Program-made: the position numbers and the translations under genes
Shown here: positions 21,936 through 45,048 of the stretch, piece after piece
Layout of the letters: each line of letters begins with the position of its first letter
How positions within the stretch are numbered: position 1 is the first letter of the stretch
The notes under the pieces: generated by a model
Databases searched by the model: none
Told to the model about the DNA's origin: nothing
What the model saw: only the letters and a program-made list of their open reading frames with translations
Source: Tachypleus tridentatus
Lineage: Eukaryota; Arthropoda; Merostomata; Xiphosura; Limulidae
Direction of reading: 5' to 3'
Assembly (NCBI RefSeq): GCF_004210375.1
Contig: NC_134834.1
Coordinates: forward strand, 89,346,170 to 89,410,169
Length of the DNA: 64,000 nt

Positions 21936-24558
21936 TTCCGGAAGAAAGAAGACAAATCCTTTTATGTTTAATATAGAACCACTACATAGAAATACGAAAC
22001 TTAAGAAACCAATTTCAAGGGAAACGTTTTGTTACATAGTTCGCGACATGCTTATCCGCTAAATTACATGATTTGAAACATTTGACAAATTAATTGATTT
22101 GAAACCCAACAACATATAATGCTTATTTTTGCGTCGTTAAAATTGAAGAAATATTCAAAGTTTTATCTGAGAGATTTTATGGAAGAGGATTTTGTTGAAG
22201 AAAGTTAAGAGAGACTTTTATTGTAAAAAGTGAATTATATTAAACTTTAAACAAGATTTATGAAGAAGGATTGCAGAACCATTTCTCGCATACTGTACCG
22301 TTCTGGGGATGCTTACTTACATTGATAGTGATTTGTTTTCAAAAGGCAAGTGCTGCTTTATAAAATTAGCCTTGATAAGAAACTAATTGCAATCTACTGT
22401 GGGCCAAGACATTCTATCAGTCTTAGTGACGCTGTCACCAAAACATGACCTTACATGGAGTCTAAATTATAGCAGGGCTAATTTAACAAGACATGAAGAA
22501 ATATAAATAAGTCCTGTGATGTCATGCGTGTTTTCATCAATCTCTAACTTTCCCTCTTACAAATTATTGAAACAAAATACATTATATCTTTCGTTATCAT
22601 AATCGTTTTCTTCTGACATGTGTGTCAATCTTATTATTTTAACATTAAACCTCAGAGGTTTTGACTTATATAAATTAAGTAATAATGCTGATGTTAAAAA
22701 CTGGTCTAAATGCCCTTCTAGTCAATTTGTTGATGTATTTTCAGTTTTGATACATTACACAATTTAGAAATTTTGGCTTTTACGACAATATTAATTTGCA
22801 CAAACCTTTAATTAACATAACGACAACATGAAGTTTGTATTCTAATGTATGATAACACCATTTTCATGTTAGCTGCTTAGATGTAGAGTTCAATGTGATT
22901 TACGAAAAACAACAAGAAAATTACGTAGGTTCTGAAGGTGTTCACTGATGATAGTTGTGGTACACCCCATTCATTCCTTTTTTGAACATTATTAACTCCT
23001 CGGCTAAATTCTAAAATATTTGATGTTGTTTGTTTGAAATTAAGGACAAAGATACTGGATGGGCTATCTGTTTTTTGTATGGAAACCCGGTTTCCAGCAT
23101 TGTAAGTCCGCAGATGTACCCGATGTGCCGTTAGGGGCTATTTGATGTACGTAGCCACTGTGCCACTAGGAGCTATTTGATGTTGATAAAATAAAGTACT
23201 TAAATTATCATTTCTGGGTATTCTTGGGATAACTGAGGGTAATAGGAGAAATAAAACCAAGCCTGCTTGTTTAAATGTTGTAAATAGTAGAAAAAAAATA
23301 AGAAATCATATATCATACGCAAAATAACTTTATATAAATAATGTAAGTTATATAGATGTAGATCAATGTGTATAAAAATAGTTATATGTTATCAAGCTCA
23401 TTAAATAAATATTAAACGTTTCATTTGAAGTCTAACAATTTATTGATTTACTGTTAAGTTGTTTTTTACGTTGTTTAGGTCTGTCCTGGGTCTAGTATAA
23501 GCATGACGGGCTGCAGATCGAAAGATGCAAGGTTTAAATTGTGATGTTTTTTTTATTACACTCAGCTCTTTCAGTCCTGTTATTCTGTTTTGAACGCAGA
23601 GCTCTGCAGAGCGGTAGATATTAATGATGGTCTGACCTCGTGGTCAAAAGTTGAAAAAACTAGAGGCTGCTATACTTGAAACAAGGTTTCTGATATGGCT
23701 GTTTAACTAATGTGTCGTATAATTATGTAGTCGATACCTTTCAGGTTTAAAAACTATAAACAACTTTCTTAACACACTTGAAATACGTTGAACAAATGCT
23801 TAGTTAAATTCAATTAATAAAAACTTCGTTTTCTCAGACTTCAGGCTGCTAAAAACATTTATATACATTTAAGTAAAATATTTGGTATTATATAACTCAT
23901 CAGTTTTGTTTCATTAATTTTTCCATCTTCTTCAAATGATATTTATTACTTATACTTCACTTCAGAATGACATCAGAGAAAAAAAATTAAACAACAATAT
24001 TTTACCAGGTTTTCCTCAGCATAATCGATGCACCTCTTTGTTTTTGATGTTAGGTTAATCTGGTGAATGTAAAGTGAATAAACGTCGTATTTGTCATGTC
24101 TTGTTCTTTGTCGATGTCCCTGGAGTATCGATTGTTTCCGGAGATATCAAGGTAAACGGAGAGAGAAGTACTTCTGTTCTTGTCATGAAACGAACACACT
24201 AACTTCTTAATCAATATAATACAAAGAACAGCTTGAAGTATGTTGACTTTTGAGATACGAAAGGACTCGTTCTATTCTAGAAGCATATTTCGTAGTTAAG
24301 TTGTCCTAAGTATTTAATTCTAGAAAAAAAATTCGATATTATTGATCACGTTAAATTTTATTTCATATTTGACAGCTTGGTTGAAGTGATACACACTCAG
24401 AAAGAAACGTGTTTCTAGGAGTTTCAGGGTATAAATCGCATTATTACTCCTTATTAAATTTTGTACTCCCTTATTAAAATAGTAAAATTACTGATAATTC
24501 TTGTTTTACACTTTTATTCATCTTTATTTACTTTAACATAATGTGTTTTCCAGTTTTA
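21936..24558. other. Unique AT-rich stretch with one SINE-B
   Basis: Apart from a SINE-B (23026-23145), no gene or mobile element is recognised. Confidence 0.5.
23026..23145 (-). mobile_element. SINE-B
   Basis: Tail AATTAAGGACAAAGATACTG, then GGGCTATCTG, GGAAACCCGGTTTCCAGCAT, and a head ending GTGCCGTTAGGGGC. A second small copy of the head end (TGTGCCACTAGGAGC) follows at about 23158-23172. Confidence 0.82.
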
Positions 24559-24560
24559 TT

Positions 24561-24829
24561 GGCCTGGAATGGCCTGAAGATTAGAGTGCTCGGCTCACAA
24601 CCTACAGATCGCGAGTTCGAACTTCCATCCAGAACATTCTAAACCTTTCAACCATGGAAGCGTTATAATGTAACAGTCAATGCTAATATTTGTTGTTAAA
24701 AGTGTAGCCCAAGAGCTGATTGTGGATGGTGTTGACTAGCTCTCTTCCCTCTATTCTATCACTATTAAAATTAGGGACAGCGAATACAAATAGCACTCAA
24801 GTTACTTTGTGCGAAATTCAAAACAAATG
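24561..24829 (+). mobile_element. SINE-A, full length
   Basis: Head GGCCTGGAATGGCCTGAAGA, B box GAGTTCGAACTTCC, tail GTGCGAAATTCAAAACAAAT. Moderately diverged. Confidence 0.9.
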
Positions 24830-25154
24830 CAATTTTCCTTATAGTTTTGTCTCTCTGAAAATTATCTAGAGATTACCAATAAAGATGTGAGAAGTTTTTA
24901 CTTTCCAGTAGTTTCCTATATTTTGCATGCATCATAACTGTGATTATAAGTGTATTTCATATAACAAGATCTTGAAATGCAAAAATACTTGTATGTTAAA
25001 AGCAGTTAATATTCAGTTGGAAATCCGAAATCTTCTCCATCTAAGTACGTTTCAAATAACGTGTCAGAGATTCAGAAATTTATATAAAGTATAATCAGTT
25101 ACTATTACAAATAATGCTCATGGGAATAAATACAAATACTGTAACACCACATAT

Positions 25155-25241
25155 GATAATTAAATTGCTAATAGCTATCTTAACGATAATTAAATTGCTA
25201 GTAGCTATCTTAATGATAATTAAATTGCTAATAGCTATCTT
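25155..25241. repeat. 30-bp tandem repeat, about 2.9 units
   Basis: Three units of GATAATTAAATTGCTARTAG plus CTATCTTAAY, nearly identical, placed just outside the end of retroelement copy B. Confidence 0.92.
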
Positions 25242-27506
25242 TATTTCCAGCTAGAAAACTTTCATATATTTGTGAATGTTTTTGAGCATTTCTGCACTCT
25301 ACACTTGATACTAAAATTCGATTCTTGGCTGTACGGAAAGAGAATGTTATGCAGGATGGTCTTGAGAGTAAAATTACGCAAAATATACAGAAATGATTGA
25401 ACTTTATTATCCTGCGTAAAACCGTTTTCAGCAAGTTCATGAGCTAAATAAAACGATAGTAGTTTTCTCTTCCAAGACCCATAATATTGGAATGAGACTG
25501 TGTCTTGACTCATCCTGATTCTGGGAAAAATTTTATTAGTTGGGACTTCAACCAATATGGTTTTCTGAAAGTAATCTTTACAGGAACTTCTGGCTCCTCT
25601 GTAACATGAGGATTCATTAAGGTTCTCTATTGAGTCTTTTCTAACCAACGTATATACAAAACTTCGAAAGATAATTTTGATGGATGATGACCCATGGCTT
25701 GAATAACCTCTTCTTTGAACATCTAATTAGCTTTGAAATTTGTTGTTGTTTTTTGTGAAGAAAACTGTTCATCTCTACAATGTCATTTGATGGAACCAAA
25801 TTTGATCAGCGTTTACAGTATAGCTACTTTTCACTTACTTACAAGCTGATTTAAACCTTTCTTAGGTGAAACCATGTACACATTATTCTTCACATTAAGG
25901 AGAGTTATATCAACAATCAATACCTCCTGACGTGCTGGAGTATTTGATTCCACTATGTCCCGCCCACTAGATGTATAATTATCGCTATTAATTCCTGATA
26001 TGGGTATTTCACTTATTGGTGGTACAATGAACACCATTTCTTTCTTCGCTGGATGTTCAACAATTAGTGTACTAATTGTTATGTAGTGCAAAGAGACTTT
26101 ATCGTTTTAGAATATGAATCATTTTGAAGCTAGCTAACGCCTACACGAAGATAGTTTCCAAAATGCCTTCTTCTTCAATATAAGTTACCCACACATTATG
26201 GGGCACAGAGAAACTTCATTTTGCTAGAACTTTATGTCAACCAATAGTTCCAATCAATATTTCTTCGTTTTTCATTTCTGGAGACAATTTTGCATCTTTC
26301 CTTAATACGTTGGAATGAACAAATATAGGTGTGGACTAACGTCAATATATTTCAAGGTTTTTCTACAAAAATCCGTGGACTCGTGGATGAATTTCTTCAA
26401 ATAATGAACAACATTTCTCAATCATGAGAGATGAAGTATTTCAGTTGAATATCTTTCTATAACTCAAATTAATTCATATTTTTTTATTTTTCCTTACCTC
26501 TGTGTTTCTCCTTTGATTTTGGAGGGGTGTGATCGTTTGGCTTAGTAACATTTGGTAACTTCTGACAGTCTCGGCTATAATGGATAGATATGCCACATCT
26601 GTAACAATTATCTCTTTCTTTTACCCTTTGAGAAGAGCATTTATTCTGTACAGACATACGTTTGAAGTTCCTTACAATATGACCTTTCAAGTTACACTTA
26701 AAACATCCATTGTATTGTTATTTATTCCCTCTGTACTCCTTAACTAGTTGTCTAGCTAATTCTTGTAGTTATTCTTGATTATTTTTAGGGGGAGTGGATA
26801 TTTTAATACTTCAGGATCTGGTACTCTCATAACTTAAAGATATACCCCAACTTTACTTCAGCCTGATTATCATATACTTGTCTGTTGTGGTATCTATAAG
26901 TTGAACTCATACCAAAGAATCCAATATTTCACGTAGAGCATCCAGGTAAAATTATTGGCCAAGTTCTTCCAAATTTTCTTCAAGTTAGACTAAGGTTGAT
27001 TATTTTCTCTATACCCTATGCATGAAATTTTTCTTAATACTTCTTTTTCTTGTGACACTCTGAATATGTTAGATAATATTTGATCATTTTTAGGAGTCTC
27101 AGTCAGCTGTAAGGTTACTTAATATTGTCAAAACTGGTACTTTTAGATGATCAGCTAGATGGATGGATTATCGTTTATTGTTCTCCACTTTTGTTCTGGA
27201 AATGATTTTAAACTGAGCCTTATATGACCTTTGAAGTACCTATCCATCATAGTCAATTGGCTTCTTGATTAACCAATGTTGAACTTGCCAACTAACTTCT
27301 AGAACTGGAGTTCGTAGAGCCCTTAAAAGACAAAGGGCACAGCAGTAATGATAATATGTGTATACCAAATAAATTATCCAATTCAATATATCATAATACG
27401 TGGTGGTTTTAGTGAGCACTCTTGATGAACTCACAAACTGATGTTGTTCGTTCACCCTTTGCACGCAATAATTTGTTTTAAGGATTTTTTCTTCAACAAC
27501 CAACAT
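25228..27506 (-). pseudogene. Decayed LTR-retrotransposon gag-pol-like region, copy B
   Basis: Minus-strand relic of a retroelement. The clearest landmark is a CCHC zinc knuckle in the open frame 26484-26690: CYRCGISIHYSRDC, spacing C-x2-C-x4-H-x4-C, followed by a Lys/Arg-rich tail, as in Gag nucleocapsid regions of Ty3/gypsy-like elements. Sequence left of it (26150-26400) corresponds to the candidate protease region of copy A. Open frames 25831-26091 (86 aa) and 25262-25648 (128 aa) lie further downstream and are not assigned. Sequence right of the knuckle (26880-27330) aligns with copy A and would be gag. Frames are broken by stops. No LTRs, primer-binding site or reverse transcriptase were found, so this is a fragment. 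Confidence 0.55.
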
Positions 27507-28839
27507 TCTTTTCTACGTGAATGGTGTGCTTTTCATTCTCAGTGGCATATTCTTTACATCACTATTGAGTTCAGTTAATTATATTATTACTGTCTAACAA
27601 TATTTCTTCAATTTTGTTATTACAGCCTTTCTGTATTTCAATTTTATTGACGTAATTTTTCTGTATATTTATGATAGTGTCAGGCTTTTATTGGGTTGAA
27701 ACCGAATTCTTTTAAAGTAGGTGTCTGTGATTTGTTGGCGATAAATTTAAATAATAAAAGTATGGCATACAATTCATCTGCTTAAAGTAATATATTCAAA
27801 ACAAATCAAAAGCACGTAAAAATCTTTGTTACATTGTTGGTTATCACAGCTCTATTGAGTACTTTAAATAAATGTCTCATTTTTGCAAAAATCCTTACAC
27901 ATATTGGTTCAGTTACTTTAGAATATCCTCTGATAATACGAGTTATTCTCCTCTGTTTGTGTTATCAAAGTAAATCTGTGATATGTTTACATTATAAATA
28001 ACAACTATATACTCTTTATGGCTAAACTCACAATCCCATAGTCTAACTTCACTGTGTGTATGTGTGTTTTCTCATAGCAAAGCCACATTGGGTTATATGC
28101 TGAGTCCACCAAAAGAAATTTAACCCCTGATTTTAGCTTTGTAAACCCGTATACTTACCGTTGTACCAACGGGGTACTAACTTTACTGTAAAAATATTAT
28201 AAAAGTTATTCGAAACAGAATTAACTGCGGTAAAATTATATTATTATTTAAAGCTAGTAGTTCATTTATAATAAATAAACTTTCTTTCATTAAAAGTTCA
28301 ATATTGGTTGGTCCAGATCAGATGAGTTTTTAAATTTTGAATGAAGATAAGGTGGTTGCTAGTTCCACTATATATGTGAAAGCAGAGATTGTTTACTAGT
28401 TTTTTTTAACAGTCTCATTGTTTGCAGGCGTAGTTGTAATATAATTTTGCTAATATTAGTGTCATTATAACCACTATAAGAGTAGTTAGCGGTGCTCTCT
28501 GGATGCGTGTACTAATTGGCTGCCTCATGTAGTAGGGTGAGAGGAGGGGTAGAGGTATTTACAAGGTGCCACCAGAGGGTAAGTAAAGATGATGAGGTAT
28601 TCACGTTGAGTACACATATAGTTTGCAAGAAAATCACCAGAAGATACTGTAGATTAGCTGGGATCAACATGTCATCAGATTTGTAGTAACAACCAATGTT
28701 TTCAAATAATTTATCCAATTTGCATAACATTCTTCCATGTAATTATCTATGTCAAAACTTCTTACTCTTTATCGCAATTACAGTTTTAACAATAAAACTT
28801 ACTATAAACCTGCCATTTTAATCTCTAGTTCTTATCATT
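27507..28839. other. AT-rich stretch with one SINE-C
   Basis: Holds a SINE-C (28063-28182). The minus open frame 28512-28730 shows no recognised domain. Confidence 0.5.
28063..28182 (-). mobile_element. SINE-C
   Basis: Tail GTGTGTTTTCTCATAGCAAA, then GGGTTATATGCTGAGTCCACC, AACCCCTGATTTTAGC and a head ending CCAACGGGGT. This is the third tRNA-like family, distinguished by its tail and its CCACCRAGNGAAAT core. A better copy is at 44930. Confidence 0.75.
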
Positions 28840-29030
28840 ATGGTTTTCACTTGTATGTTTAATTGCATTACACGCATTTTACAAAGGCAGATGATGATAA
28901 GCAGATGGTTGAACTATACTTTTAATAGAAATGCATACTTGTCTCAAATTATATTTAGAGTTTTCATTTATATATCTAGTTGTATTATGTACGTTTTACA
29001 AAATTTTGATAAAATATTTTAATTTTTTGT
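28840..29030 (+). repeat. Third copy of the 30/38-kb repeat segment
   Basis: CATTTTACAAAGGCAGATGA and AATGCATACTTGTCTCAAAT align with 30590-30760 and, reversed, with 38400-38600. Diverged and short. Confidence 0.55.
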
Positions 29031-29464
29031 TTCTTGCGATAAAAGATGTGGTCTATAAGTAAAGATGACTTTTTCACATCTTATAAATCTACCACATTTG
29101 CTGATTACCATTACATAATGTACTTTACAATTAACATAAACTGTCTGTAAGTCTATCATTTGAGAACGAGTTTTGCATATCACTGAACTTGACAATCGGT
29201 AAAAATCGAACTTATCAATACTTTCCCTTTATGTAACGATATACGAAACTAAATGTACGTTCATGACATTCTTAAGATTTGAGGATACATTGGTATATTA
29301 CGTTCTGTCCTCAGTGTAGAACTCACATATTTGTTGTTTAAAACTACTATTATTCACAAATATAACTAACTAAGTTCTATGTATAGTATTGACTTCTTCA
29401 GGGTGTAATTATTTACACATGTATAGATATATCAGTATTGCACATCTATCAGATTGGGTCGCGT
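29031..29464. other. No feature recognised
   Basis: AT-rich, non-coding in appearance. Confidence 0.5.
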
Positions 29465-29720
29465 TTGTGAAATTTATATGACGGACAAATTCCGCTAACA
29501 TCTCGATAACTTTTGACATTTAGGAATGACATAAACTGAAGTTGCAGTTTGAAGTTAAACACAAAGCTACATAATGTGATATATGTGCTTTTCCCATCAT
29601 GGGTGTCAAAATCCAGTTTCTGACAATATAAATATGCAGACATACTGCTACACCAATGGAGTGACAAACCAAAACACGCATGAATTATAAAATAGTGGAT
29701 TGCCTAAACTAAATTATTTT
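29465..29720. repeat. Direct repeat, copy 1 (partner 34225-34370), interrupted by SINE-B
   Basis: AACATCTCGATAACTTTTGA and ATTATAAAATAGTGG also occur, in the same order, at 34225-34370. Here a SINE-B (29548-29662) separates the two blocks; the partner lacks it. Confidence 0.65.
29548..29662 (-). mobile_element. SINE-B
   Basis: Tail AAGTTAAACACAAAGCTACA, head ending CTACACCAATGGAG. Absent from the paralogous site near 34.3 kb. Confidence 0.8.
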
Positions 29721-29820
29721 TATGCAAGTCTAGTACATTTCAATCAGTATACAATTATTGTATACTTTCTACTCATTTAGACTCTCCTACTGACCTCAAA
29801 TTGTGTGTCAACCTGTTCTA

Positions 29821-30084
29821 TTTGTTTGTTTCTGAATTTCGCGCAAAGCTACTCGAGGTCTATCTGCGCTAGCCCTCCCTAATTTTGCAGGGAAGGCAGC
29901 TAGTCCTCACCACTCACCGCCAACTCTTGGGCTACTTTTTTACTAACGCATAGTGGGATTGACCGTAACATTATAACACCCCCCACGTCTGAAAGGTCGA
30001 GCATGTTTGGCTTAACGGAGATTCGAAACCCCGACCCTCAGATTACGAGTCGCACGCCTTAACCTAGACGGCCATGCCGGGCCT
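29821..30084 (-). mobile_element. SINE-A, full length
   Basis: Tail TTTCTGAATTTCGCGCAAAG to head GGCCATGCCGGGCC, with a short internal deletion after CTAATTTTGCAG. Confidence 0.93.
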
Positions 30085-30321
30085 AACTTATCTGTTTTTC
30101 CTTCTTAGCTTTGCGCTGTTTACATAGCAGTTAGTTTTACTATTCTTGGCACAATATTTTGTTTTACACAAATTACTTTATAGTTAAACTTTCATAAGTT
30201 TTACAAAGGCGGGTGGTGTTTCTGTAAGAGGATAGTTCTACAAGGTGGATTATGGCACTACAACTCTGTGGTTGGATAGTCTTACTAGGCATAACATTGA
30301 TTTTCAATTTCACTTTGAAGT

Positions 30322-30551
30322 TTATTTGTTTGTTTGTTTTTGAATTTCGCACAAAGCTACTCGAGGGCTATCTGTGCTAGCCGTCCCTAATTTAGCAGTG
30401 TAAGACTAGAGGGAAGGCAGCTAGTCATCACCACCCACTACCAACTCTTGGGCTACTCTTTTACCAACGAATAGTGGGATTGACCGTCACATTATAACGC
30501 CCCCACGGCTGAAAGGGCGAGCATGTTTTGTGTAACTGGGATTCGAACTCG
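30322..30551 (-). mobile_element. SINE-A, 5'-truncated, with TSD
   Basis: Perfect 12-bp TSD TCACTTTGAAGT at 30310-30321 and 30552-30563. The element stops within the B-box region (GGGATTCGAACTCG), so most of the tRNA head is missing through truncation at integration. Confidence 0.95.
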
Positions 30552-31203
30552 TCACTTTGAAGTAAAAGAGTAAATATGTTTTTTGGTATGTACGTTTTAC
30601 AAAGGTGGACTGTGTTTGTATAGATGGATTATGTCACTAAAATTTGTATAGAAGGATTGTGTTGTTACAAATTAGAATGGTGTTTAACAGGACTGCATAC
30701 AGATCTCAGTTTATATTTAATTACAAACATTTTAAAAATGTGTTTCTATTGTTTCATATGACAGCATGCAGTTTTCAACATATCTTATATTAATTTTCAT
30801 TTACTTGTACTTGTGTAGGACAATAGTGTTACTAACATGTTTAAGTTATTGCCGAGTTTGAGTTATTGCAAATGTTTTTTATTCATATTGAACAAGACAA
30901 CCAACTTTTTTTCTAATATACTGATTATAATTTTAGTTTCTACATTTAAGCGTACTTTTTACAGTTATTGTCCGGAGATAAAACATTTATTTGAATGCTG
31001 TGCGATAATTTAACATATTAGTTTGTTCGAAAATTAATGGCGAATTTTTATATCAAAGTTTTAGTCATTTATAGAGATGAGATACCTTTCTATTTTACGA
31101 CTTCATATACATCATTGTAAAACTAAATCTTTCTTTTATTCGTTAGCATTTTTATTCTTTTCTAAAACATTATTTCCAATATATCATACTCTTACAATTC
31201 ATG

Positions 31204-32068
31204 ATGGGAAAAAAAAAGTTGCTCATAATTATTTTGCATGAATTCAAACTTGATCATAATACATCACAAACAGCTCGCAATATCAACCAGGCATGTGGCG
31301 AAGGAATCACCTACGAATGTACAGTGCAGAGTTGATTCCAAAAGTTCGTAATAGAAATGTCAGTCTTGGAGATAAGGAGGGCAGTTCTTGTGTTGTTGAA
31401 AACGTCCAATTTAAAGCATTAGTAGAAATAAACCTGTATCAAACTGTTCCAGAAATGGCACAAGAATTGGGTGTTGGTGTTTCCACAATTTCGGACCATC
31501 TCGAGGAAATTGGAAAAAATGAAACGCTCTACAAGTGGGTTGTTTCCACACGAACTGAGTGAAAAATCAGAAAAATCGCCGTTTTGAACTATGCTATATA
31601 GAAATTTTGTGCAACAGAAATGATCCATTTCTTGATCTAATTGTCAATTGTGATGAAACGCGGATACAAAAACAACAAAAAGTTGTCTACGCAATGGCTC
31701 AATCGCGACAAGACTCCAAAACACATCCCAAAGGTAAAGTTGTACCAACATAAGATTATGGTCACTGTATGGTGTTTTGTGGCAAGTGTTGTCCATTACA
31801 ACTTCCTCAATCTGAGCCAGAATATCACTGCGTAGGTTTACTGTCAAAACTTGGAAGAAAAGCATTAATCAATCGCAGAGGACCAATCTTTCTTCATGAT
31901 AATGCTCGGTCACACCTTGCTCATAAGACGCTCCAGAAGCTCAAAGAATTGGGCTACGAAACATTGCCTCATCTTCCTTACTCCCCAGACTTGTCGTCCC
32001 CTGACTACCACGTCTTCAAGCATTTGGACAATATTTTCATGACAGAATATTCAACAATAGAGCAGTAA
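31204..32068 (+). pseudogene. Mariner transposase pseudogene (DD34D type)
   Basis: Mariner transposase cuts and pastes its element at TA sites. The N-terminal helix-turn-helix is recognisable in pieces (about 31240-31345, then the open frame 31293-31562 with MAQELGVGVSTISDHLEEIG), followed by TRTE*KNQKNRRFE. The first catalytic Asp is in VNCDETR (about 31645), where DEKW is usual. The second is in LHDNARSHLA (about 31895) and the third in SPDYHVF; exactly 34 residues separate the latter two. At least three frameshifts or stops break the frame, and the C-terminus is interrupted by a SINE after 32068. Subfamily is inferred from NQKNRRFE and FKHLDNIF. Confidence 0.93.
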
Positions 32069-32078
32069 CATAGAATGG

Positions 32079-32357
32079 TTTGGTTTGTTTGTTTTGAATT
32101 TTGCGTACAGCTACGCGAGGGCTGTCTGCGCTAGCCTTCTCTAATTTAGCAGTGTAAGACTAGAGAGAAGGAAACTAGTCATCACCACCCACCACCAACT
32201 CTTAGGCTACTCTTTTATCAATGAATAGTGGGATTGACCGTCACATTATAACGCTCCCACCGCTGAAAGAGCGAGCATGTTTGGTGTGATGAGGATTTGA
32301 ACCCGCAACCCTCGGATTACGAGTGGAGTGCTTTAACCACCTGGCTATGCCTAGCCA
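32079..32357 (-). mobile_element. SINE-A, full length, nested in mariner
   Basis: Tail GAATTTTGCGTACAGCTACG to head GGCTATGCCTAGCC. It interrupts the 3' part of the transposase, so it inserted after the mariner. Confidence 0.93.
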
Positions 32358-34224
32358 GCACAGAATAAGACTTTCACTTTACAAGTAAAAGTGTAAATAT
32401 GTTTTTGAAAAGCGGACAAAGTCACTGAATGACTTTAAATAATTTATTTTTTTTCTAAAACTTTAGTTTTATCGTCATGTCATAAATAATGTTGTTTCTT
32501 ATTGGCCATAGTGTGTAAATTCACTAGGTTCCTATTTTGATTAATAAAGTTGCTTTTGAATGTGTTTATATTTCTTATGAAAGTTAAAATTTAAAATCCG
32601 CCATTGATTTTCGAACAAACTAATAAAAGTTTGCACTTTCACTTCTTTTTCTTTAGTCCATCCATATAATTATGATTTTTATAGTTTTTAACATATGTTC
32701 ATTTCACACATATATCTTATGGCAATTTTAACTTACGTACTTCTTACAATGTTTCCATGAGCCAAAGTTGTTATTTTTACAAGTTATCACTAAGGATAGT
32801 GTTACTTTAGGCAGAAAGTATGTCTGTAGTTCCACTGGAGTTTAACACACCTGCTGTTTTGCTTTCCTAAGTAAAACCTTTATTTCTGTGAGACAACTAT
32901 TATAATATATATCAATTCATACCTGTTATCTAATATTTGAAAAAGGTAGTTGATTGAACCAGTAATCTACTTTACCTACTTTTATCACCATTAAAAGGAT
33001 GCTTACTTATTTCTCTGTATAATTAATTAAACATATACAAACTTACTGTTTCGTTTCATAAATATATATTCACATATAATGCATATTTCAATAGTTCTAA
33101 TATCTGGCATAATCATATCCTTATGTTAATCCTTTGTTTATGATTTTATTTATATCATTTGTTTCAGTTAGATATAATAAGTACCAGAGTTCACTATGTC
33201 AATTTAGTATATATCAAAAAATCGGTAGAAACACTATATCACTCATTAATGTTACACCAGTTGCAATGGAATTTAACTTTAAGTGTTGCATTTTCCAGCT
33301 GATCCACGATTTGTAGTATAGAGCGAAATGTTTCCTTGACAGTGGCGTACACTTATATTTAGAAACTGATTACAACAGTGACTGTCTACGTTTTACAGAC
33401 ACTTGTTCTTGTGCACTGAAATTGTCTCGGCATCAAAGGACCTCAAAGCTGCCATCAAGTAAAGTCCTTGGGACATTCTCATAACTCTAGAAAATCACAA
33501 TTCATTTAGTCTACACTAAACGTATGTTTTATCTTGGGACTCTGTACACTATACAAGTGCAGCCACCTCACCTGTTAATGGAGTACCAATCAATACTTTA
33601 CGAATCCTTGTCTTTGTGCACTGAAAATCTTGGCACGAAACCTTGAGGTCATTATTCAACACTAGTCTTTTCTTTTTGCCTACGATATTATTATGTTACA
33701 CGGTAGGCATAACTCTAACTTAATCATAATATGCATAGTTATTAAATAATGGTCTCTAGAGATAAATCTAATTACGTTGATGAATGCCTGACATGGTTTT
33801 TGTGAATTTTTATGAACACTCATTATAAACTGATTTCATCGAAAGGATAGATATATCTTTTGTTTTAGTTCATACATTTTGTTACGAGGTCACAAAACTT
33901 GAAGCATATCACCGTATTGCAAAATGTCCAATTTAATATTCACGATACTTTTTGTTCTACTGATAAAGTAAATGTAACAAAGTTTTAAAACATTCTCTAT
34001 TCTTTATATCACAACAAAACCACAATCTGAGTTCTGTATTGTTATACATCAGATGAAATGTATTCATTTATGGTTTTATTATATTAAAGAGAATTGTTTC
34101 TCAAGTTGCAGAGATTGACATACATGTGACTAATTAACAAAAGTCAGTAAGAGAGTAGTTTAATAGAAAGTACATAAGGATTGTACATTAACTGAAATAT
34201 ATCAGTTTTTATCATCTTTCTTAC

Positions 34225-34370
34225 AGGATAGACTGTGTTCTTCAAATTTATATTATAAGCAAATTCCTGTGACAAGCTGACATCTCGATAACCTTTGATA
34301 TTTACAAACAACGCAAACTCTAACATGTGTGGATTATAAAATACTGGTATATTTCAGTTAATGTACAAGT
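34225..34370. repeat. Direct repeat, copy 2 (partner 29465-29720)
   Basis: Shares CTGACATCTCGATAACCTTTG and GATTATAAAATACTGG with copy 1 and lacks the SINE-B insertion. Confidence 0.65.
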
Positions 34371-34743
34371 CTTGTGAGTGCTAAGTTCAACAAAATGCAA
34401 AATCTGTTCTTTGTTGACAGAATCAAAGCATAACAAACATACAACTTGTTTTGGTTATCAAGTACATTCGTTGTACAATTATAACATTGTACAGTAGGCA
34501 TGATGGATTTATAAAATGTCAAAGAAAAAATATCTATGTCCTTGTAGACAATATCTTCTATCTTAAAAACCACAAATTGATATATTTTGTCAAGAAGTGT
34601 TTATTGTTATCATAATTAGTGTAGAGAATTTATTTGTTCTTAAATTTTTCAAAGGTTATATGCACATAATATTTGATAAATATCGAATAAAGTGGTCTTC
34701 ATTTAAGGTATCCCAGAGAGTTACGTTGATAGAACCTCATTAA

Positions 34744-35043
34744 TTAAACTCTTTGATTACACATAGACAGAACAATAAATTTATTTACTCTTGTAAATGC
34801 TGATCTCAAATATAACCATTCATCAAGATCTAACAAGTTACAAGCTTCACACTCATCTTTCTTCAGTTCTTGTAAAATAAGCCATATCTGTTCAGAATAT
34901 ATATTAATAGAAACTGATTTAATATAATTATTTAATTTCTTTTTTGTTATGAAGTACAGTGTTTTAGGTAAGTATGAAAATGATAACTCTTTGCAGTAAT
35001 TTCTGTTATTATGGATTTCATAAAATAAAGAGAACCTTATCAA
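34744..35043 (-). other. Unassigned 99-codon open frame
   Basis: Starts MIRFSLFYEIHNN and ends VLSMCNQRV, with a charged middle (LQELKKDECEACNLLDLDEW). No domain, signal peptide or splice logic is recognised. It could be chance or a relic of an unidentified element. Confidence 0.2.
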
Positions 35044-35417
35044 ATGTCATGTCAATAACTTGATAATCAAATCGATATGTAAACAACATAGAGGCGATAT
35101 TGTTAACACATGCAACATGAATTACTTGATTCTGTCCTAATTAGTATAATGTAGCAATGCTATTTATTAATATAACAAATATGTCTTAAACCAAACGTTA
35201 TTGTGCCAAAAGAAAACCATAAACAGAAATTAGATTTATAAGCAAAGAAACATATATTACGATATATTGACATTTAGAAGTTGATCCACCATATTTTCTT
35301 CCATATAGTAGACCTGCATCAATCTTATTGTTAGTAATGAAAAGGACAGTGTGTTGATAATTGGAAAGTAAGCCAGACTTGATAGAACTTTAGATTGTTT
35401 TTTGTAGTCTGATTTCA

Positions 35418-36230
35418 AACATTAGTAAATGTCTATCACCATTCGAGTGCATGTAAACATAACTGTATTGTTTAATACCAAACATTAGTATATTTCTATC
35501 ACCATTCGAGTGCATGTAAACATAACTGTATTGTTTAATACCAAACATTAGTATATTTTATCACCATTCGAGTGCATGTAAACATAACTGTATTGTTTAA
35601 TACCAAACATTAGTATATTTCTATCACCATTCGAGTGCATGTAAACATAACTGTATTGTTTAATACCAAACATTAGTATATTTCTATCACCATTCGAGTG
35701 CATGTAAACATAACTGTATTGTTTAATACCAAACATTAGTATATTTCTATCACCATTCGAGTGCATGTAAACATAACTGTATTGTTTAATACCAAACATT
35801 AGTATATTTCTATCACCATTCGAGTGCATGTAAACATAACTGTATTGTTTAATACCAAACATTAGTATATTTTTATCACCATTCGAGTGCATGTAAACAT
35901 AACTGTATTGTTTAATACCAAACATTAGTATATTTCTATCACCATTCGAGTGCATGTAAACATAACTGTATTGTTTAATACCAAACATTAGTATATTTCT
36001 ATCACCATTCGAGTGCATGTAAACATAACTGTATTGTTTAATACCAAACATTAGTATATTTTTATCACCATTCGAGTGCATGTAAACATAACTGTATTGT
36101 TTAATACCAAACATTAGTATATTTCTATCACCATTCGAGTGCATGTAAACATAACTGTATTGTTTAATACCAAACATTAGTATATTTCTATCACCATTCG
36201 AGTGCATGTAAACATAACTGTATTGTTTAA
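35418..36230. repeat. 63-bp minisatellite, about 13 units
   Basis: Tandem units containing CACCATTCGAGTGCATGTAA and ACATAACTGTATTGTTTAAT, nearly identical. The main variant is C or T in TATATTTYTATCACC. One unit (near 35558) is 62 bp. Because 63 is 3 x 21, the minus strand stays open for 234 codons (35548-36252) as repeats of IKQYSYVYMHSNGDRNILMFG, with R or K at one position. The frame ends at the 62-bp unit. I regard the ORF as a by-product of the period unless transcription is shown. Confidence 0.97.
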
Positions 36231-36252
36231 TGAGCTCGTAAATTTCACACAT

Positions 36253-37429
36253 TTCACATATTGATTATTTACTGACTATTAAATTCGGTGGCAGTTAATT
36301 TATTTAAGAAGTACATGTTTTGTAGAATTTGAACGATTTATTTTCATTATTGAATATATTATAAATATATAAGTAGCGATAATGTATTGTAATAGACTTG
36401 GTAAACTCAAAACCGACCTGTATTGCATGCCTGGTCAATGACCTGAGTTCATTCTACTGCTATGCAATATGTCGCTTCATACAAAGAAGCACTGAATACT
36501 CAGTGGTACTGTAGCGTTGTTTGAAGACTTGTATCTTTTAATTATATTTTCTGAAGTTGATACACTGATGAAAAGTATAACATGAGATGATTACAATAAC
36601 AATGAATCTGAAGTCTGGAACAACTGTTGTAAAGAACAAGAACTATTAATTATAATTTATAAATTATATAAACTCTTACGTAATGAGTTGGAATTGATGT
36701 AGAGTATGAAAAGTAATCCAATAAAATTATAATGATTATAATGTATTAGTGTATCTGAGGTTTTGTCAAGTATGTATGATGCTTGTTAAATTTATTTAAA
36801 GATAGTATATTGGGCTATGACAAGTTTTATATAAGAACATCACAGAGCTCAAAATTGTATAATACACTTTACTGAAACATTGTTTCAAATATTTTGAGAA
36901 TAAAATAACAAATAGTCAGTCAATTTACAATTAAATATTTTTTTTTTATGATTTACCCAAGTGGCACAGCGGAATATCTGGGGACTTTCAACGTTAGAAA
37001 CAGGGATTTAAGTCTCGTGGTGGGTAGAGCACAGATAGATCATTGTGCAGTTTTGTGCTTAACTACAAATAAACAAATATGTTTTTTGAGTTATGTTTAT
37101 TTGTGAAAAATGTACATTTAAAATTAATAAGTTCAAATGCATATAAAGTTTATAAAGATACGGAAATATATTTTTCCTTTTGTATAAATGAAAATTTTAA
37201 TTGGTTTAATCTTAAGTGAACACGCAGTCAAAAATTGTCATCAATTGTTATAATGAAATAGCCCACACAATTTATATGTGTGGCTACGTGATGGCCTTTG
37301 TATTGCCTAACAAACATCGGGCTTGATGGGAAATAAAGGTTTACCTCAAAGCTTTATGAATTCTAATTGCGTAGAACAATAAGTGAATGGTGAGTGTTAC
37401 TGTTATATATATATATATGTTGTAATAGT
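36253..37429. other. AT-rich stretch with one SINE-B
   Basis: Holds a SINE-B (36957-37078) and a TA microsatellite near 37405. No gene seen. Confidence 0.55.
36957..37078 (+). mobile_element. SINE-B
   Basis: Head CCCAAGTGGCACAGCGGAAT, tail GCACAGATAGATCATTGTGC, then AACTACAAATAAACAAAT. Confidence 0.85.
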
Positions 37430-38880
37430 AAAGTGATTGGATAAACAGTAAATAATTCATTTATTATATTTAGTTGTAGCAAATTGATATGAATGAAATC
37501 ACACATAGAGAATTAACATAAGGATATGACTTACACAAGACATATGTAGTGATATGTACATTATATGTGAATGTGTATTTATAAAGTGAAACAGTAGGTT
37601 CTTATGTTCAATTATATAGAGAACTAAATAAGCAACTTTTTCGGGACATTAAAAGCACATAAAATAAGTTAATGTGTATAATAACTGTCTTATTCAAATA
37701 ATGGATAATATAGTTGAACAGATATATGTTGTATAGCCAATAGCACAGTAGTATGTCTATGGACTTATACCACTAGAAACTGGTTATCAATAGCCGTGGT
37801 GTAGTTGCCTGCTTAATAGCAATAGTCATATATGTTATAATAGGTGTATTATTGAAATAACGGTTTCATTTGATAAAGCGAAACAGCAGATGTGTAAAAT
37901 TCTGTTGAACTAAAGATACATTGTCTGCTTAAAGTAGAACTATCGTTAGTGAGAACTTGTAATTATAACATCTTCGGTACATAGAACACTGTAAAAGAAA
38001 CATAAGTAAAATATTATAGGATACATTTGTAAAATAACGTTTTTTCAAGAAACATAACAAATCATAGTGATATGGATAGAATGAAGACAAACTAGTGGAA
38101 GTGCAAACTTCTATGTCAAATTATTGCAAAGCATGTAAATAAGTATTTTTTTCAGGACAATAACTGTAAAAAAGTAAGTTTAATATAGAAACTAAAACTA
38201 TAATCAGCACGTTAGAAAAAAATTTGCTGTTTTATTCAATATCAATAAAATGTTACGTATGATAAAAGTTTTTAGCAGGAAGTTGAATGTGCGAGTAACA
38301 CCATCTTCTTATAAGAACACAAGTAAATGAATCATAAGATGAGAACATGCTTGTATGAAGTATAGAAACACCTTTTTAAAATGCATGCAATTAAATGTAA
38401 GTTGAGACATATATGCAATTCTTTTAAATACTACTTGCTTTGTAAGACTTTCATCATGTAACAACATCGCATATTGAACCTATATAACATAATTCGCTGA
38501 GCAACACCATCCATCTTTACAAACGTGCTTTTAAGTAAAACAATCTACATATAGAGACATAGTCTAGCTTTCTAAAACATATTTAACGTATTACTTATAA
38601 AGTAAAACTGAAAATGAATTTTACGCCTAGCCAAAAAATACACCTATAGAAACATATTAACACCTGCCTAGTAACGTCATCCACCTGTAGTAACTCTATC
38701 TGCCTACAGAAATGCCATCTACCTTTGTAAAACGTATGACAGTTAAAAGTATAAAGCAGCGTGTGTAAAATGAAATATATGACCAAGTATAATAAAACAA
38801 TCATCCTTATACGGGTAGAGTCAATCTGGCAAAACTTTGGCGTTAAAATAATGGTTTTACTTGTAACATAATTAAATCTA
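37430..38880 (-). repeat. Inverted duplication, right arm (partner 30090-33290)
   Basis: Aligns with the left arm as reverse complement. It lacks the mariner: the site reads ACATAGAAGTTTGCACTTCC on minus (about 38100), with a single TA. It carries its own SINE-B relic (37733-37826). Confidence 0.85.
37733..37826 (+). mobile_element. SINE-B relic
   Basis: AGCCAATAGCACAGTAGTAT head and ATCAATAGCCGTGGT core; the tail is decayed. Confidence 0.6.
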
Positions 38881-40140
38881 GACATTGATGAGATGTTGAG
38901 ACACTCTAGAGTAAGATCATAACATGGCTGCCTATTTGATGCCTCTTTGTGGCTCTAGCAACACAATTTTTGGATAAGTTTTGTTATTATAACAACGTCA
39001 GCTTTTCAAGTTATTCTCACATTTCTTCTCAGTTTGTTCATTGTGGATTCAAGATCAGAAGCATGTGAAAATAACATTTCAAATCTATCTTTTGTCTCCA
39101 ACAAGTCATCGTCCAACTGTAGTTTGTACTTTACACCTATCTTATGTCCCCAACATACCATTTCCTGACACTAGTTTAGCAGTAATGCTCATGTTTTCGT
39201 GCATTGTTGTGACACTAATTTTTCGCTGGTGAGTTCTTTTATATTAACTGATTGAGGATAACTCAACTTCCACTCCACTTAACGATAGCAACGTAATTCT
39301 CCCTTTAAAGTTTCTATAAGCTTGAACATTTGCACACAGCCGGAAATTGCTGCACGCTTACGTTGTAAAATACTTTAATTAACGTAAAAAAAATGGCTAT
39401 AGTTAACTTTGACTGATTTCAATCTCTATCTTGAAAAATTCATATTTTACAAATAAATGAGTATTTATAACTTAGCTTAGAATATACTACAAAAAGTCAC
39501 AATTTAGAAGTTTTTAAGCATTATAGCTTACTACAGTAGGAACAATCACTCAAAATATTTTATTAGTCAGTTTCATTGACACAAATGTTAGAGAATCTAC
39601 TGACTTCGCTAGATCTACTTGATTGAAACTTGTTTTACGACAAGATGATATTCAAGTAGTCAAAGAAAGTTTACTATTTTTTTCCATAAACGCTATTAAA
39701 CTGTTATCTTTAAGCCTATTCTTAGCATTAATGTACTATTAATGAAAAAATATAATTTGTTGTTCTTTGTTATTACAAAGTTACACAAAGAGCTATATAT
39801 ACTCTGCCCACCACGGTTATTGAAATCTGATTTCTATTAGTACAAGTCTGCAGAAATACTACTGGATGTAGATGAAAACTATAACATACGTCCACGTGTT
39901 ACTTATAAATGTTGCGTAGTGTAGACATCTTCTTTTATTGTTTATGACATGGATGAGGTAATTGTAAAGCTTTGACAGAGGACTACGCATTGTCAATGAA
40001 ATTAAGTGTAACATTTTTAACATGTTTTTATAAGAAAGCTCCAGTGAGTTTATTTTTTCCGGTTGCGACAATAGTTAAAAATAGAACTGATTTCCGTTTG
40101 AACAGTAAGAGCAAGTTTTGTAAAACCTATTACTGAAGTA
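38881..40140. other. No gene; one SINE-B
   Basis: Contains a SINE-B at about 39763-39866 (reverse; AGTTACACAAAGAGCTATAT ... CCACCACGGTTATTGAAAT). Otherwise AT-rich unique sequence. Confidence 0.5.
39763..39866 (-). mobile_element. SINE-B
   Basis: Tail TTATTACAAAGTTACACAAA, core CTGCCCACCACGG, and a degenerate head. Confidence 0.75.
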
Positions 40141-41306
40141 TACTCTTCAAAACAAAAAACGCAAAAGAGATATTTTTGTTATTTTAAAGAGAAATATATG
40201 TAATAACGTTACAAGCTCAGAGTATGTGATGTTACACGTGTTAAGGCACTGATTGTCAGACTAAAATGACAATAAAAGTTATGCACTTTGAAAACGGAGG
40301 AAAACATCGGATTTTTCGCCAAAACGCATGCGTGTCCAATAAATTTGTTTGAGAGATCTGCATGTTCTGCAAGTGCAACATGTGCAAAATCCCTATAAAA
40401 GTGACGGGTTCTCGGTTTCCATAGCTCAGTGTTAAACCACCGACACGCAATACAGTTACGCCAAGACTGACTAAAGCACAACGCAACAACGCCATTGGTC
40501 ACTTGGAAGCAGGCGAATCTCGATCAGATATTGCCAGAGCTTTGAATGTCCACCAAAGCACCATCACGAGGCTATGAAATCGTCACTAACAACATGGATC
40601 AACTCGTGACCGTCCACGATCTGGCAGACCTTGTGTGACCACGCCCGCACAAGATCGCTACATCCGGTTAGGTCACCTTCGGGATAGGACCACCACTGCA
40701 ACGTCTACTGCCTCAACCATACCAGGGCTGCGTAGGATTTCCGATCGGACCGTACGCAACTGTCGACGAGATTCTTAGGCCCCATGTGCAACCCATCATG
40801 GTGAACGTCAACGACGTTTTTCAACATGACAACGCCCGTCCTCACACAGCCCGACTCACCACTGTCTTCTTGAGACACCACAACATCAACGTTCTTCCCT
40901 GGCCCTCCAGATTACCAGATTTAAACCCCATCGAACATCTTTGGGACGAGTTGGACCGACGTCTACGACAGCGACAACTTCAACCGCAGACTCTACCTCA
41001 GCTTGCAGCAGCTTTGCAGGCTGAGTGGACAGCCATTCCACAGGATATGATTCGTCATCTCATCGCTTCCATGGGCAGGAGATTCCAAGCAGTTATTGAT
41101 GCTCACGGGGGGGCATACTCGTTATTGACGTTGAGTGACGTTAAACTTCAACTAGTGAGCGTGGACTTCGCCTTTGCAGACTTTGGATGTTCAGCAGTGA
41201 ATGTGCAAAGTTTTACAGATGTCATACAGAACTACCCGGAATAAACTTGTAAACAATTTGTCTCATATTTTGCCTTTTGCGTTTTTTTTTTTTTTTTTGA
41301 AGAGTA
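40141..41306 (+). mobile_element. Tc1-like transposon with TIRs, internally deleted
   Basis: Inverted ends start TACTCTTCAAAA and continue to AAAAAACGCAAAAG; the right copy has an expanded poly-T run (41282-41298). TA target duplications lie at 40139-40140 and 41307-41308. The 1166-bp length is less than expected for an intact DD34E Tc1 element of this type because the middle of the transposase is gone. Confidence 0.94.
40458..41244 (+). pseudogene. Tc1-like transposase pseudogene (DD34E)
   Basis: The N-terminal half reads PRLTKAQRNNAIGHLEAGES, then RSDIARALNVHQSTITRL and, after stops, a GRP-type linker (RPRSGRP); this is the paired-like HTH DNA-binding region. The usual start codon is ACG at 40458. 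At about 40757 the frame jumps from the end of the HTH linker (RTVRN) to VDEILRPHV, just before the second catalytic Asp. The segment with the first catalytic Asp is therefore deleted. The C-terminal open frame (40786-41244) keeps FQHDNARPHTARL ... LPDLNPIEHLWDEL, with 34 residues between Asp and Glu. A TATAAAAG box precedes the gene at 40392. The element is non-autonomous but could be mobilised in trans. Confidence 0.95.
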
Positions 41307-41308
41307 TA

Positions 41309-42104
41309 TTTCATATATCAAATAATGAGATGTTGATAACTAATTATGAATATACTGATTTTCAGACTTGCTTAGCGTATAAAGAAACATTTTAGGCCTT
41401 AGAAATTATGTGTTTCTTTCCCCCGCCTCTCGAGGCACTTCACTGAAAATACGGATTAAAACAATTAAAACAATTTGAAAGTAACAACGAAAGTTATCTA
41501 ACAGAAGTCACACAAGCTACTGTTAACAAGCGAGGAATGCAGTAAAACGTTTATTTAATTAACGTTTCTGAATCACTTAGGACTTTTTAAAATAAATGTA
41601 GTAACTTTGAGTGAAAGTTAAAAAAATGATCATTCTAAGAGTTGAAAAAAATATTTTGCTACACTTAAATTAAATTCGTTATAATGAATCAATAGAGGTG
41701 ATTAAACCGAAGAAAGTTAAATCCATTTTTATTTTTTGTCTGTTAACTGCGTTAAGATCTATATATGTACTTGTCATTTTGCCAAATAATACGTGAGTCG
41801 CTTATTTATGTATATCATAAAAATCGAGCCGTTTAAACTTATGTTTTGACTTGAAACATTGTGATCTTTTTAGTTTAGATATAGTTCTGTAAATAAAATC
41901 TTCACATATCAGTCAGTTTTCTGCTTTTTTTTATAATATCAAGATTTTTCTAGGATCTGCATCACTTTTTATTGTCGATAACATAATTAAAGAAAAGTTG
42001 TAACAATGGAATGATTCTACTTGAAAACATAAATGCTGAAACCTACGTGGTGTCTAATATTTCTGTACAAAAAATCTTACACTTAAATAATAATTATACT
42101 ACTT
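41309..42104. other. No feature recognised
   Basis: AT-rich, with no gene or repeat seen. Confidence 0.5.
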
Positions 42105-42346
42105 GTAATTCGAGGATCGCGGGTTCGAATCCCTGTCACACCAAACATGCTCGCCCTTTCAGCAATGGGGGCGTTATTATGTGAAGGTCAATCCCACTAT
42201 TTGTTGGTAAAAGAGTAGCCCAAGTGTTGGCAGTGGGGGGTGATGACTAGCTGCCTTCCCTCTAGTCTTACTCTGCAAAATTAGGAACAGCTGGCGCAGA
42301 TAGCCCTCGTGTAGCTTTACGTGAAATTCAAAACAAACCAAACCAA
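42105..42346 (+). mobile_element. SINE-A, part of the head missing
   Basis: Begins within the tRNA anticodon arm (GTAATTCGAGGATC), has an intact B box GGTTCGAATCCC, and the core and tail through AAACAAACCAAACCAAG. Confidence 0.92.
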
Positions 42347-42611
42347 GGACTGAAAATTATAGATCAGTTTTAAGGGAAACTGCGCCATCTAGAGGAAAAT
42401 AAGATTTTTTTTAATGGCAGATATTTATTTGAATATCCCAATCCCTCAAAAAGCGAATCTAAGCATTTAACAAACATCTTATTAAATATTTTCTCACAAA
42501 ATAAAAAATAGATAAAATCAATACATGTCCTTAATTTCCTCAGTTCAAAAGCCTACTTACGTTGAAAGTTGTTGTTTTTAACAACAAGTAACGTATTATA
42601 CTTTACCCCAT

Positions 42612-42705
42612 CAGCATGAAGTCTTACATCTTATAACGCTAAAAATCGGGTTTCGATATTGTGGTGAGTAAACCATGGATATCGCACAGTGTAGTTTTAT
42701 ATATA
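42612..42705 (+). mobile_element. SINE-B relic
   Basis: ACGCTAAAAATCGGGTTTCG core and a degenerate tail CACAGTGTAGTTTT. Confidence 0.55.
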
Positions 42706-44135
42706 ATAAGGTAGAAACAAAAAAAGTTATATCTCTAAATAACAGAAAATACTGAAAGTATTGAAAAATGATAGTCGTAATATTTACGGCTTGAGAGAAG
42801 TATCGAAATTGTGAGTATTTTCTGAACAGGATTTTGATCATGAGCTGGTGTTACTTTGTAACTTTAAATTACGAATTCCATCAGTTTGTGTTTCTTAGGA
42901 ATTATACAGCATGATGTTACCATCTTATTACCTTTTATTGTTTTGTATATTTCGATAACGTAGCGGTGAAACAGATTTAGCCGTTGTCAGCACAATACTT
43001 TATATTTCCGTATATATCTTGTTGTATGTGTTCTGGCTTTCCCAAAGGTATATTAGAGTTAAGCTTCATATATTAGGGTCAAAGACCTCTAACAATTTTC
43101 TTTCACATTTCTGTACCGAACAAAATTTCCTGATAGTCTATCGTTATGAGAATTTTAGAATCAATGTTAATATATACGCAGTAAAAACATGTTTAATTTA
43201 ACTATTCCAATGAAATAATTAATATTTTCTTTCGTAGGTGAAGCACTAAATTTAGTTGTTTTTTCATGTTCTTTTGAGTAAAAAATGTTATTTATTTAGT
43301 GAATCCACTTTGGCATTACATTTTAAGAGTTGTAATAATTGCTTAAAAACCCATTACATTCGAAGTTGAGGACTTTGCTTTTAGGCCATTGAGCTGAAGT
43401 TTACCGTAGGTACATATATTTTTTAAAGATCACCACATAAAGTGCAAGGGTTGATTCGTTCTCAGAGTGAATGCCGGTGCATTGTGCTTTAAATGGGGTT
43501 ATGTAGTGTACGTACGCCAAAGACAGCGAGCCATAAGTCTTGTTGAAACTTCATATTCGACCTCACGGTAAGGAGAATTTGGAGCTCTAACAATAGGTAA
43601 CATTCAGCTGGAGAGCCTAAGAATGCTCTTTTATTTCACGAAAACCGAGAAGAAAACGCTTCAACTATATCTTGAAATAAAATAAACCGTTTGGATTCTC
43701 AAGGAATTAAAAACTACGACAAGGGTGGAAAACTACATTACTTTTAAAGAAGATCGCAATCTCTTGCCAGAAGTAAACTTGAAACTTCCTTTCATTTTTG
43801 ATGATAACTTGAAAATTACAGGAGAGTAGAAACGTTAGAAATGTTTCCAAGAGTAAACTCGATTTTAAAATAAGTCACTTCTTCGTTGAATGGTTATTTG
43901 ACCTCTTGAATTTCAAGTATATGTCTCTTACCATCATTTGTTTTATTATATTTTTATTAAAAAGGCTTTTAAAAGGTGTACAACTCCTGGAAAGTGCAAA
44001 CAATGTAGAGATCGATTGTTTCTCGCTTTCAATGTAATAAATATATCTCTATCGTTAAATATTATTACAATTGCGTGAAGGTGATCATTTTATAAATAAA
44101 TAAGCTATTCAAGTTATGTCTCATAAATAATTCCG
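42706..44135. other. No gene recognised
   Basis: The stretch at 43480-43640 is somewhat less AT-rich, but all frames are interrupted by stops. Nothing is assigned. Confidence 0.45.
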
Positions 44136-44262
44136 TCCCCTCCTCTATGGCACAGCGGCATGTCTGCGACTTAGAACACTAGAAACCGAATATCGAAACC
44201 CGTGATGGGCAGATCACAGATAGCCATTATGTAGATTTGTGCTTAATTACAAACAAACATAA
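44136..44262 (+). mobile_element. SINE-B, tail to tail with an inverted copy
   Basis: Head TATGGCACAGCGGCATGTCT, B-box-like TATCGAAACCCGTG, tail GTGCTTAATTACAAACAAAC. It is followed at once by a reverse partial copy. Confidence 0.88.
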
Positions 44263-44269
44263 ACAATAA

Positions 44270-44345
44270 TTTTGTTTTTGTTTCCGAACACAAATCTACA
44301 CAACGGGCTATCTGTTGTTGCCTATCACGGGAATCGATATGAAGT
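44270..44345 (-). mobile_element. SINE-B 3' part, inverted neighbour
   Basis: TTCCGAACACAAATCTACAC, then GGGCTATCTG and ATCACGGGAATCGATA. The head is missing. Confidence 0.75.
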
Positions 44346-44929
44346 TTTTAACGTTTTACGCTTTCAGATTTGCCGCTGAGTTTTGTATGTTTGTTTCTAG
44401 AGTTGCAAATCCGCAGCCTTACTTCTGTGACACTGGTGAACAAAGTTGACGCTCTACAAGTTACAAAATATTTAAAAGTTTTGTAACTGTAGTTGATAGA
44501 GCAGATATATGTAAAGTACATTGTAAACTTCATTCTCAATCAATCTATTATATATATTTTTATGAAAACCACCATATGATACAACAGTTTGTATAATCTG
44601 CTAAAAACTAGCAGGCATAATTATAGGCTAGCACACACGGATTAACATTATATGTTTATTACGTTTTCTATTGTTAGGTGAGGTTTTTTTCAGGTGAATT
44701 TGAATACAATAAAAACAAAACACGCAAAGTCTGAAAAGGAAGCATTTTATTTTTTGAACTTCAAGTCGTACAAGTTAGCTTTACTAATGTTCACTGATAC
44801 GCTTTAGTATAGACGCTTCTACAACAATTTCACCTACTTGTTTAACTCCTGCCTTTTATATTACATTTTCTCACATGTATCTCTTCGTGAAAACACAAGC
44901 GCAATATTCTCGGAACTGGACAAAGAATG

Positions 44930-45048
44930 TGTTTGTGTTTTTCTTACAGCAAAGCCACGTCGGGCTATATGCTGAACCCACCGAGTGAAATCGAATACCT
45001 GATTCTAGCATTGTAAATCCGTAGACTTACCGCTGTAATAGCGGGGTT
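44930..45048 (-). mobile_element. SINE-C
   Basis: Tail GTGTTTTTCTTACAGCAAAG, then CGGGCTATATGCTGAACCCA, AATCGAATACCTGATTC, and a head ending ATAGCGGGGTTTG. Confidence 0.8.

Follow-up and report, generated by a model that had tools for sequence, protein, structure and literature searches.

The 64,000-nucleotide stretch of Tachypleus tridentatus DNA analysed here (NC_134834.1, positions 89,346,170 to 89,410,169 of the forward strand; called the window below, with all positions counted from its first base) contains a mariner transposon situated within one of two long, inverted arms. The locus is very probably a nest of insertions, in which an old, non-coding, foldback-like element with long arms had its left arm struck by the mariner and received further inserts later. 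The copy of this host element occupies about 30093-38952. Sequence comparisons favour the reading that its arms are the long terminal inverted repeats belonging to a single old element. The host element and the mariner have the following parts, where SINE1 denotes a short interspersed element (SINE):

30093-31015, plus strand: left arm, outer part, with SINE1 inside it; its left end is truncated or decayed (nhmmer, blastn and global alignment)
31016-31017, strand not applicable: left copy of the TA target-site duplication
31018-32623, plus strand: degenerate mariner of 1606 bp, with terminal inverted repeats (TIRs) at 31018-31048 and 32593-32623
31769-32068, plus strand: open piece of the mariner transposase, an open reading frame (ORF) with HDN...SPDYH that resembles the Hsmar1-derived domain of SETMAR
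32624-32625, strand not applicable: right copy of the TA target-site duplication
32626-33220, inner limit approximate, plus strand: left arm, inner part (blastn and global alignment with the right arm)
33221-37429, limits approximate, strand not applicable: interior of the host element, large parts of which match another family locus, L009, in order
37430-38952, limits approximate, minus strand: right arm, with an empty mariner site at TA 38112-38113 and an empty SINE1 site near 38594-38607

The mariner has a TA on each side, its junctions being TGCGATAATTTAACA-TA-[TTAGTTTGTTCG...CGAACAAACTAA]-TA-AAAGTTTGCACTTTCAC. In the right arm the counterparts of both flanks join at one TA (...AATTTGACA-TA-GAAGTTTGCACTTCCA), and the reverse complement of this arm reads TTTGCAATAATTTGACATAGAAGTTTGCACTTCCA across the site. 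The left flank, 30665-31025, aligns with 38445-38104 on the opposite strand at 72% identity, and the right flank, 32623-32912, aligns with 38114-37828, also on the opposite strand, at 76%. Both flanks thus match one continuous stretch of the reverse-complemented right arm. A preliminary description of the locus, made from the sequence without database searches, had proposed a mariner between two TAs in the left arm opposite a single TA in the right, and this arrangement was confirmed. The further proposal that the empty counterpart establishes both the TA duplication and the borders of the element is borne out as well, and is strengthened by the empty sites found in other members of the family (see below).

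Further matches between the arms were found for 32901-33180 with 37733-37461 and for 30134-30250 with 38798-38679. Upon excising the mariner and SINE1 from the left arm (a few SINE1 bases being left in), the global alignment of the arms, which spans 1223 columns including 369 with gaps, gave an identity of 71.5%. Locally, the arms scored at best 339 bits, as compared with maxima of 38.3 bits for 60 block-shuffled right arms and 31.9 bits for 60 random pieces of the window. The right arm can be traced to about 38952, showing that the right limit of 38250 given in the preliminary description was too short.

The TIRs of the mariner are 31 bp long and match at 29 of 31 positions. One end reads TTAGTTTGTTCGAAAATTAATGGCGAATTTT and the opposite end, read inwards, TTAGTTTGTTCGAAAATCAATGGCGGATTTT. 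The transposase is present in broken frame pieces, split by a second SINE (SINE2). In the open piece HDN and SPDYH are separated by 34 residues, the spacing of the DD34D class; the first D (NCDETR) lies in a separate frame piece at 31559-31753, and the spacing given is that of the last two acidic residues. A phmmer comparison of the transposase piece with PDB gave the Hsmar1-derived domain of SETMAR as the best match (E 1.8e-24), followed by Mos1 (E 4.7e-11). Against the DD34D assignment, none of three mariner transposase pieces matched Pfam at E 0.01. By its sequence, the mariner of the window is a dead copy that belongs to the Tc1/mariner superfamily and is Hsmar1-like. Its family is dispersed in the genome. 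With a 1058-base query (31018-32075), the best 40 of 546 candidate places were scored, the window copy included, and the other 39 are 72-79% identical to the window copy over most of the query.

The host element, too, belongs to a dispersed family. A 301-base piece of the left arm, used as a query against the 2.17-Gb genome, yielded 50 candidates, of which 40 were scored as matches; these lie on 12 contigs and include the piece itself, the remaining 39 being 66-81% identical to the query. These counts are rough lower bounds, as the window's own right arm was missed, and one copy contributed both of its arms as separate matches. When up to 2 mismatches were allowed, a 24-base arm pattern was found at 11 places in the genome versus 2 for the reversed control. 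Sixteen loci were read at length, comprising 12 at the best places (about 10 kb each) and four further copies (about 7.5 kb each). Arms that are inverted and face inwards, forming long TIRs like those of the window, were found at five of the 16 (L009, L011, L012 and L017 among the 12, and L056 among the four). L009, situated on a different contig, is collinear with 30.67-38.34 kb of the window, with gaps but with interior parts included, at 60-75% identity per piece, and carries its own arms in inverted orientation. L017 is a shorter copy, mostly palindromic, having 4.1 kb between its terminal blocks.

In the preliminary description the right arm was taken for a paralogous segment, that is, once-unique sequence had undergone a local inverted duplication and the mariner had then entered one copy. 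Seen in the window alone, the two arms do resemble an inverted duplicate pair. However, the arm is a dispersed repeat, the layout with a matching interior is found on another contig at L009, and inverted arms recur at the four other loci, so that a local duplication is very improbable. A segmental duplication would moreover be expected in few copies with flanks in common. When the flanking regions 10000-30000 and 39001-59000 were searched against the first 12 loci (E 1e-10, at most the best eight matches per locus), the matches listed outside the element were repeat-like and 64-132 bp long, plus one of 317 bp with L012 (70% identity, window about 27705-28018). A segmental duplication, or a remnant of a whole-genome duplication, was rejected, since arms and interior parts recur widely without collinear flanks. 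The claim that the mariner arrived after the segment had duplicated stands insofar as the arms already existed as separate sequences, and fails insofar as it assumes a local or segmental duplication. If the arms are the inverted repeats of one element, it becomes the claim that the mariner arrived after the host element had two arms.

The outer arms of several copies contain repeated, degenerate modules, GACGTCATAGTTCC/ACCAGAGGGCG, also seen as GACGTCATAGTTCCACGAAGT...ACCAGAGGGCG; a 36-base motif of these modules was not found in the window. Alignment of a terminal block succeeded at 16 ends, including 8 that had served to build its model, and the block approximates the consensus AGTAGTTAA...GCC.CCAGAGGGCGACACAA.TGT.TCGACCTCA. 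A profile of the terminal arm built from 12 ends was located with nhmmer in the right arm at 38952-38709 (E 9.6e-18), starting at model position 169 of 509, and in the left arm at 30093-30223 (E 3.7e-12), starting at position 307 of 509. No clear target-site duplication of the host element emerged from the aligned arm ends (16 ends, 15 in one comparison) or from four longer stretches of the copies. A SINE copy at 29821-30083 lies immediately next to the point where the left arm becomes recognisable, and the outermost part of this arm may therefore be lost, or lie unrecognised beyond that SINE.

The mariner site is empty in other members of the host family. A query made by joining the two flanks of the mariner matched 21 distinct family places (the window itself excluded, the right arm included). 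At 10 of these the alignment extends 10 bp or more beyond the mariner junction in either direction, that is, without an insert; they are the right arm, L009, L011, L014, L015, L016, the left arm of L017, L019, L034 and L047. A search of loci L001-L055 with the mariner query found no mariner at the site. Besides the window and five mariner loci, this query gave one weak match of 103 bp, which lies about 400 bp away from the site in L047. It is hardly credible that both arms once held the mariner and that the right arm later lost its copy through precise excision or gene conversion. Nothing was found in favour of such a loss, the alignments of nine family places beyond the window run through the site uninterrupted, and the site in the right arm has no extra bases. 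Excision of mariner elements usually leaves a footprint.

Several observations weigh against the interpretation of the locus as a two-armed element entered by a mariner. At the other 11 of the 21 family places the match does not extend past the junction on both sides, and they are uninformative there; at one of them, L039, two pieces abut at the junction. Furthermore, a match spanning the junction is empty by construction, as a filled site would split in two, and the weight therefore rests on there being no locus with a split match and a mariner between its parts. Nor does divergence order the events. The mean Jukes-Cantor distance among six mariner copies, including that of the window, was found to be 0.254 (15 pairs, 0.216-0.313), the five comparison copies being among the best-scoring ones and parts of two of them, L052 and L053, being poorly aligned. 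The distance between the arms is 0.358 in the global alignment and about 0.26 when only ungapped columns from the best two local matches (222/284 and 262/338) are counted, the latter value being no greater than the mariner mean. Dating by divergence, according to which the arms would be older than the mariner burst (0.358 versus 0.254), was consequently set aside as not decisive.

Other points on the same side concern the host element itself. The two arms of the window (72-76% identity) are barely closer to each other than the arms of different copies are over the same stretches (65-73%). Both ends of the window copy match the terminal model in its inner parts only and are therefore truncated or decayed. 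Both terminal blocks were found in a single copy, L017, and no clear target-site duplication of the host was seen by eye there. Finally, 11 of the 16 loci lack a clear inward-facing pair within 7.5-10 kb; one of these, L010, has a partial inverted pair only, and L057, L058 and L059 each have a single arm in about 7.5 kb. This would be the pattern if the single arm were the repeat unit, two copies of which had landed nearby in opposite orientation by chance or had been paired by recombination. Loci with one arm or with fragments are equally what is expected of old, broken copies. The order of the interior at L009 and the recurrence of inward-facing pairs argue against a single-arm unit and make it unlikely, although pairs in the same direction were not counted systematically.

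The sequence of events preferred here would begin with the spread through the genome of an old non-coding element with two long inverted arms, presumably moving as a DNA transposon, one copy of which came to lie in the window. The mariner would have inserted by a cut-and-paste mechanism at a TA in the left arm, with duplication of that TA, while the right arm and other members of the family would have retained the site as it was before. SINE2 would have entered the mariner, SINE1 the left arm outside the mariner, and a SINE-like element of a second family the right arm, and part of the host interior would have expanded into a 63-bp minisatellite. The mariner is placed later than the arms because its site is empty in the right arm and in other family members. 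The host element was thus followed by the mariner and then by SINE2, while SINE1 and the right-arm insert are independent of both these insertions and arrived later than the arms. When the recognised later inserts are subtracted, the host copy measures about 6.1 kb, which may approach its original length. The later inserts and the minisatellite are:

30321-30551, minus strand: SINE1, 5'-truncated, with a tRNA-like head by eye; absent from the right arm
32076-32357, left limit approximate, minus strand: SINE2, within the mariner
35416-36231, plus strand: minisatellite of 13 units of 63 bp with 98% match (Tandem Repeats Finder)
37731-37827, plus strand: SINE-like insert of the second family in the right arm, tRNA-like by eye; a gap in the arm alignment, absent from the left arm

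SINE1 is flanked by an 11-bp duplication, TCACTTTGAAG, at 30310-30320 and 30552-30562, and a scan matched 30326-30551 to positions 1-221 of a 275-bp SINE copy of the window. The right-arm insert is flanked by a 9-bp duplication, ATATATGTT, at 37722-37730 and 37828-37836, and has dispersed matches within the window. Like the mariner, each of these two inserts is present in one arm and has an empty site in the other. Next to SINE2 lies a stretch of about 70 bp, from 32358 to about 32426, that five other mariner copies do not have. It resembles sequence of the left arm adjacent to SINE1 (33 bp, 91%) and also the corresponding part of the right arm (39 bp, 82%). It might derive from gene conversion, or from read-through of a SINE that lay in a copy of the arm. 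A genome search with the end of SINE2 and the 70-bp stretch returned only the query itself, from one candidate; very common words were skipped in this search, and the result does not imply rarity.

The host element appears to be non-coding as far as tested. In the interior of the window copy, the minisatellite set aside, the longest stop-free frame has 100 codons, and six interior stretches from five copies, again with the minisatellite excluded, have longest stop-free frames of just 65-104 codons. The ORFs at 34744-35040 and 33134-33313 gave no Pfam match at E 0.01. A Polinton/Maverick or other coding element was rejected, as a polymerase and an integrase were not found and the interiors are without long frames. 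The interior part 33672-34400 is very abundant, with 182 first-look candidates and, with the best 40 scored, at least 52 matches; a short inverted pair, 34173-34216/34376-34332, is located inside it. It could represent either an independent repeat that lies within the host or the best conserved part of the host itself.

The minisatellite is far more uniform than the host element around it. Its counterparts in L014 (about 137 bp) and L019 (about 109 bp) are without such an array, suggesting that it probably expanded within the window copy. An ORF of 234 amino acids on the minus strand of the array (35548-36252) is open because the 63-bp unit corresponds to 21 stop-free codons in that frame. The match of this ORF to DUF4116 in Pfam (36.6 bits versus a cut-off of 24.9) was rejected as an artefact, as no single stretch passes alone.

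The mariner resembles Tc1/mariner elements of the Hsmar1 type in its TA duplication, TIRs of about 30 bp, body of about 1.3 kb without the SINE, and 34-residue spacing between the D residues; it differs in being dead, with broken frames and a SINE splitting it, and its placement in a subfamily is provisional. The inserts resemble tRNA-derived SINEs in their tRNA-like part (by eye) and, in two cases, in exact short target-site duplications. According to excerpts of the published accounts, the host element is similar to the foldback elements Tetris of Drosophila virilis (PMC4079207) and Galileo (PMC4168063) in its long inverted arms and non-coding character, possibly in the repeated outer-arm modules of several copies, in the variable length of the copies, and in the growth of a tandem array inside the element. 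In the same excerpts Tetris is called apparently nonautonomous and its tandem repeats lie in the TIRs, whereas the array of the host lies in the interior (PMC4079207). The similarity to both elements is one of description. Titles and abstract openings in the literature on horseshoe crab repeats, SINEs and mariners, on foldback or long-TIR elements, and on paralogous empty sites held no description of the host family. It is suggested only tentatively that the host represents an undescribed family of long-armed, non-coding foldback transposons, the paired arms of which act as mutual insertion controls. If so, each arm would keep the pre-insertion site for insertions into the other, and the order and borders of younger elements could be read in a single genome without related species.

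Nested insertions are events of an ordinary kind, and no general idea is changed by the present example. It does fix exactly the borders and the target site of one member of a many-copy mariner family, and provides a clear order of insertion for several repeats. It also gives reason for caution, as an "empty paralogue" beside a transposon may turn out to be the opposite arm of a long-armed element and not a segmental duplication.

Other repeats were noticed in the course of this work. An inverted pair of 600 bp, 18836-19437 and 48499-49082, has about 91% identity, far closer than the arms of the host, and overlaps SINE matches in parts. Two tandem copies of a 216-bp unit, with 98% match and SINE-like by eye, are situated at 14670-15094. 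In L014 there is an inverted pair at 2946-3877 and 6405-7399 of that locus (90-91% identity), one side of which lies within the host-matched stretch and the other just outside it; this pair is a separate, younger repeat.

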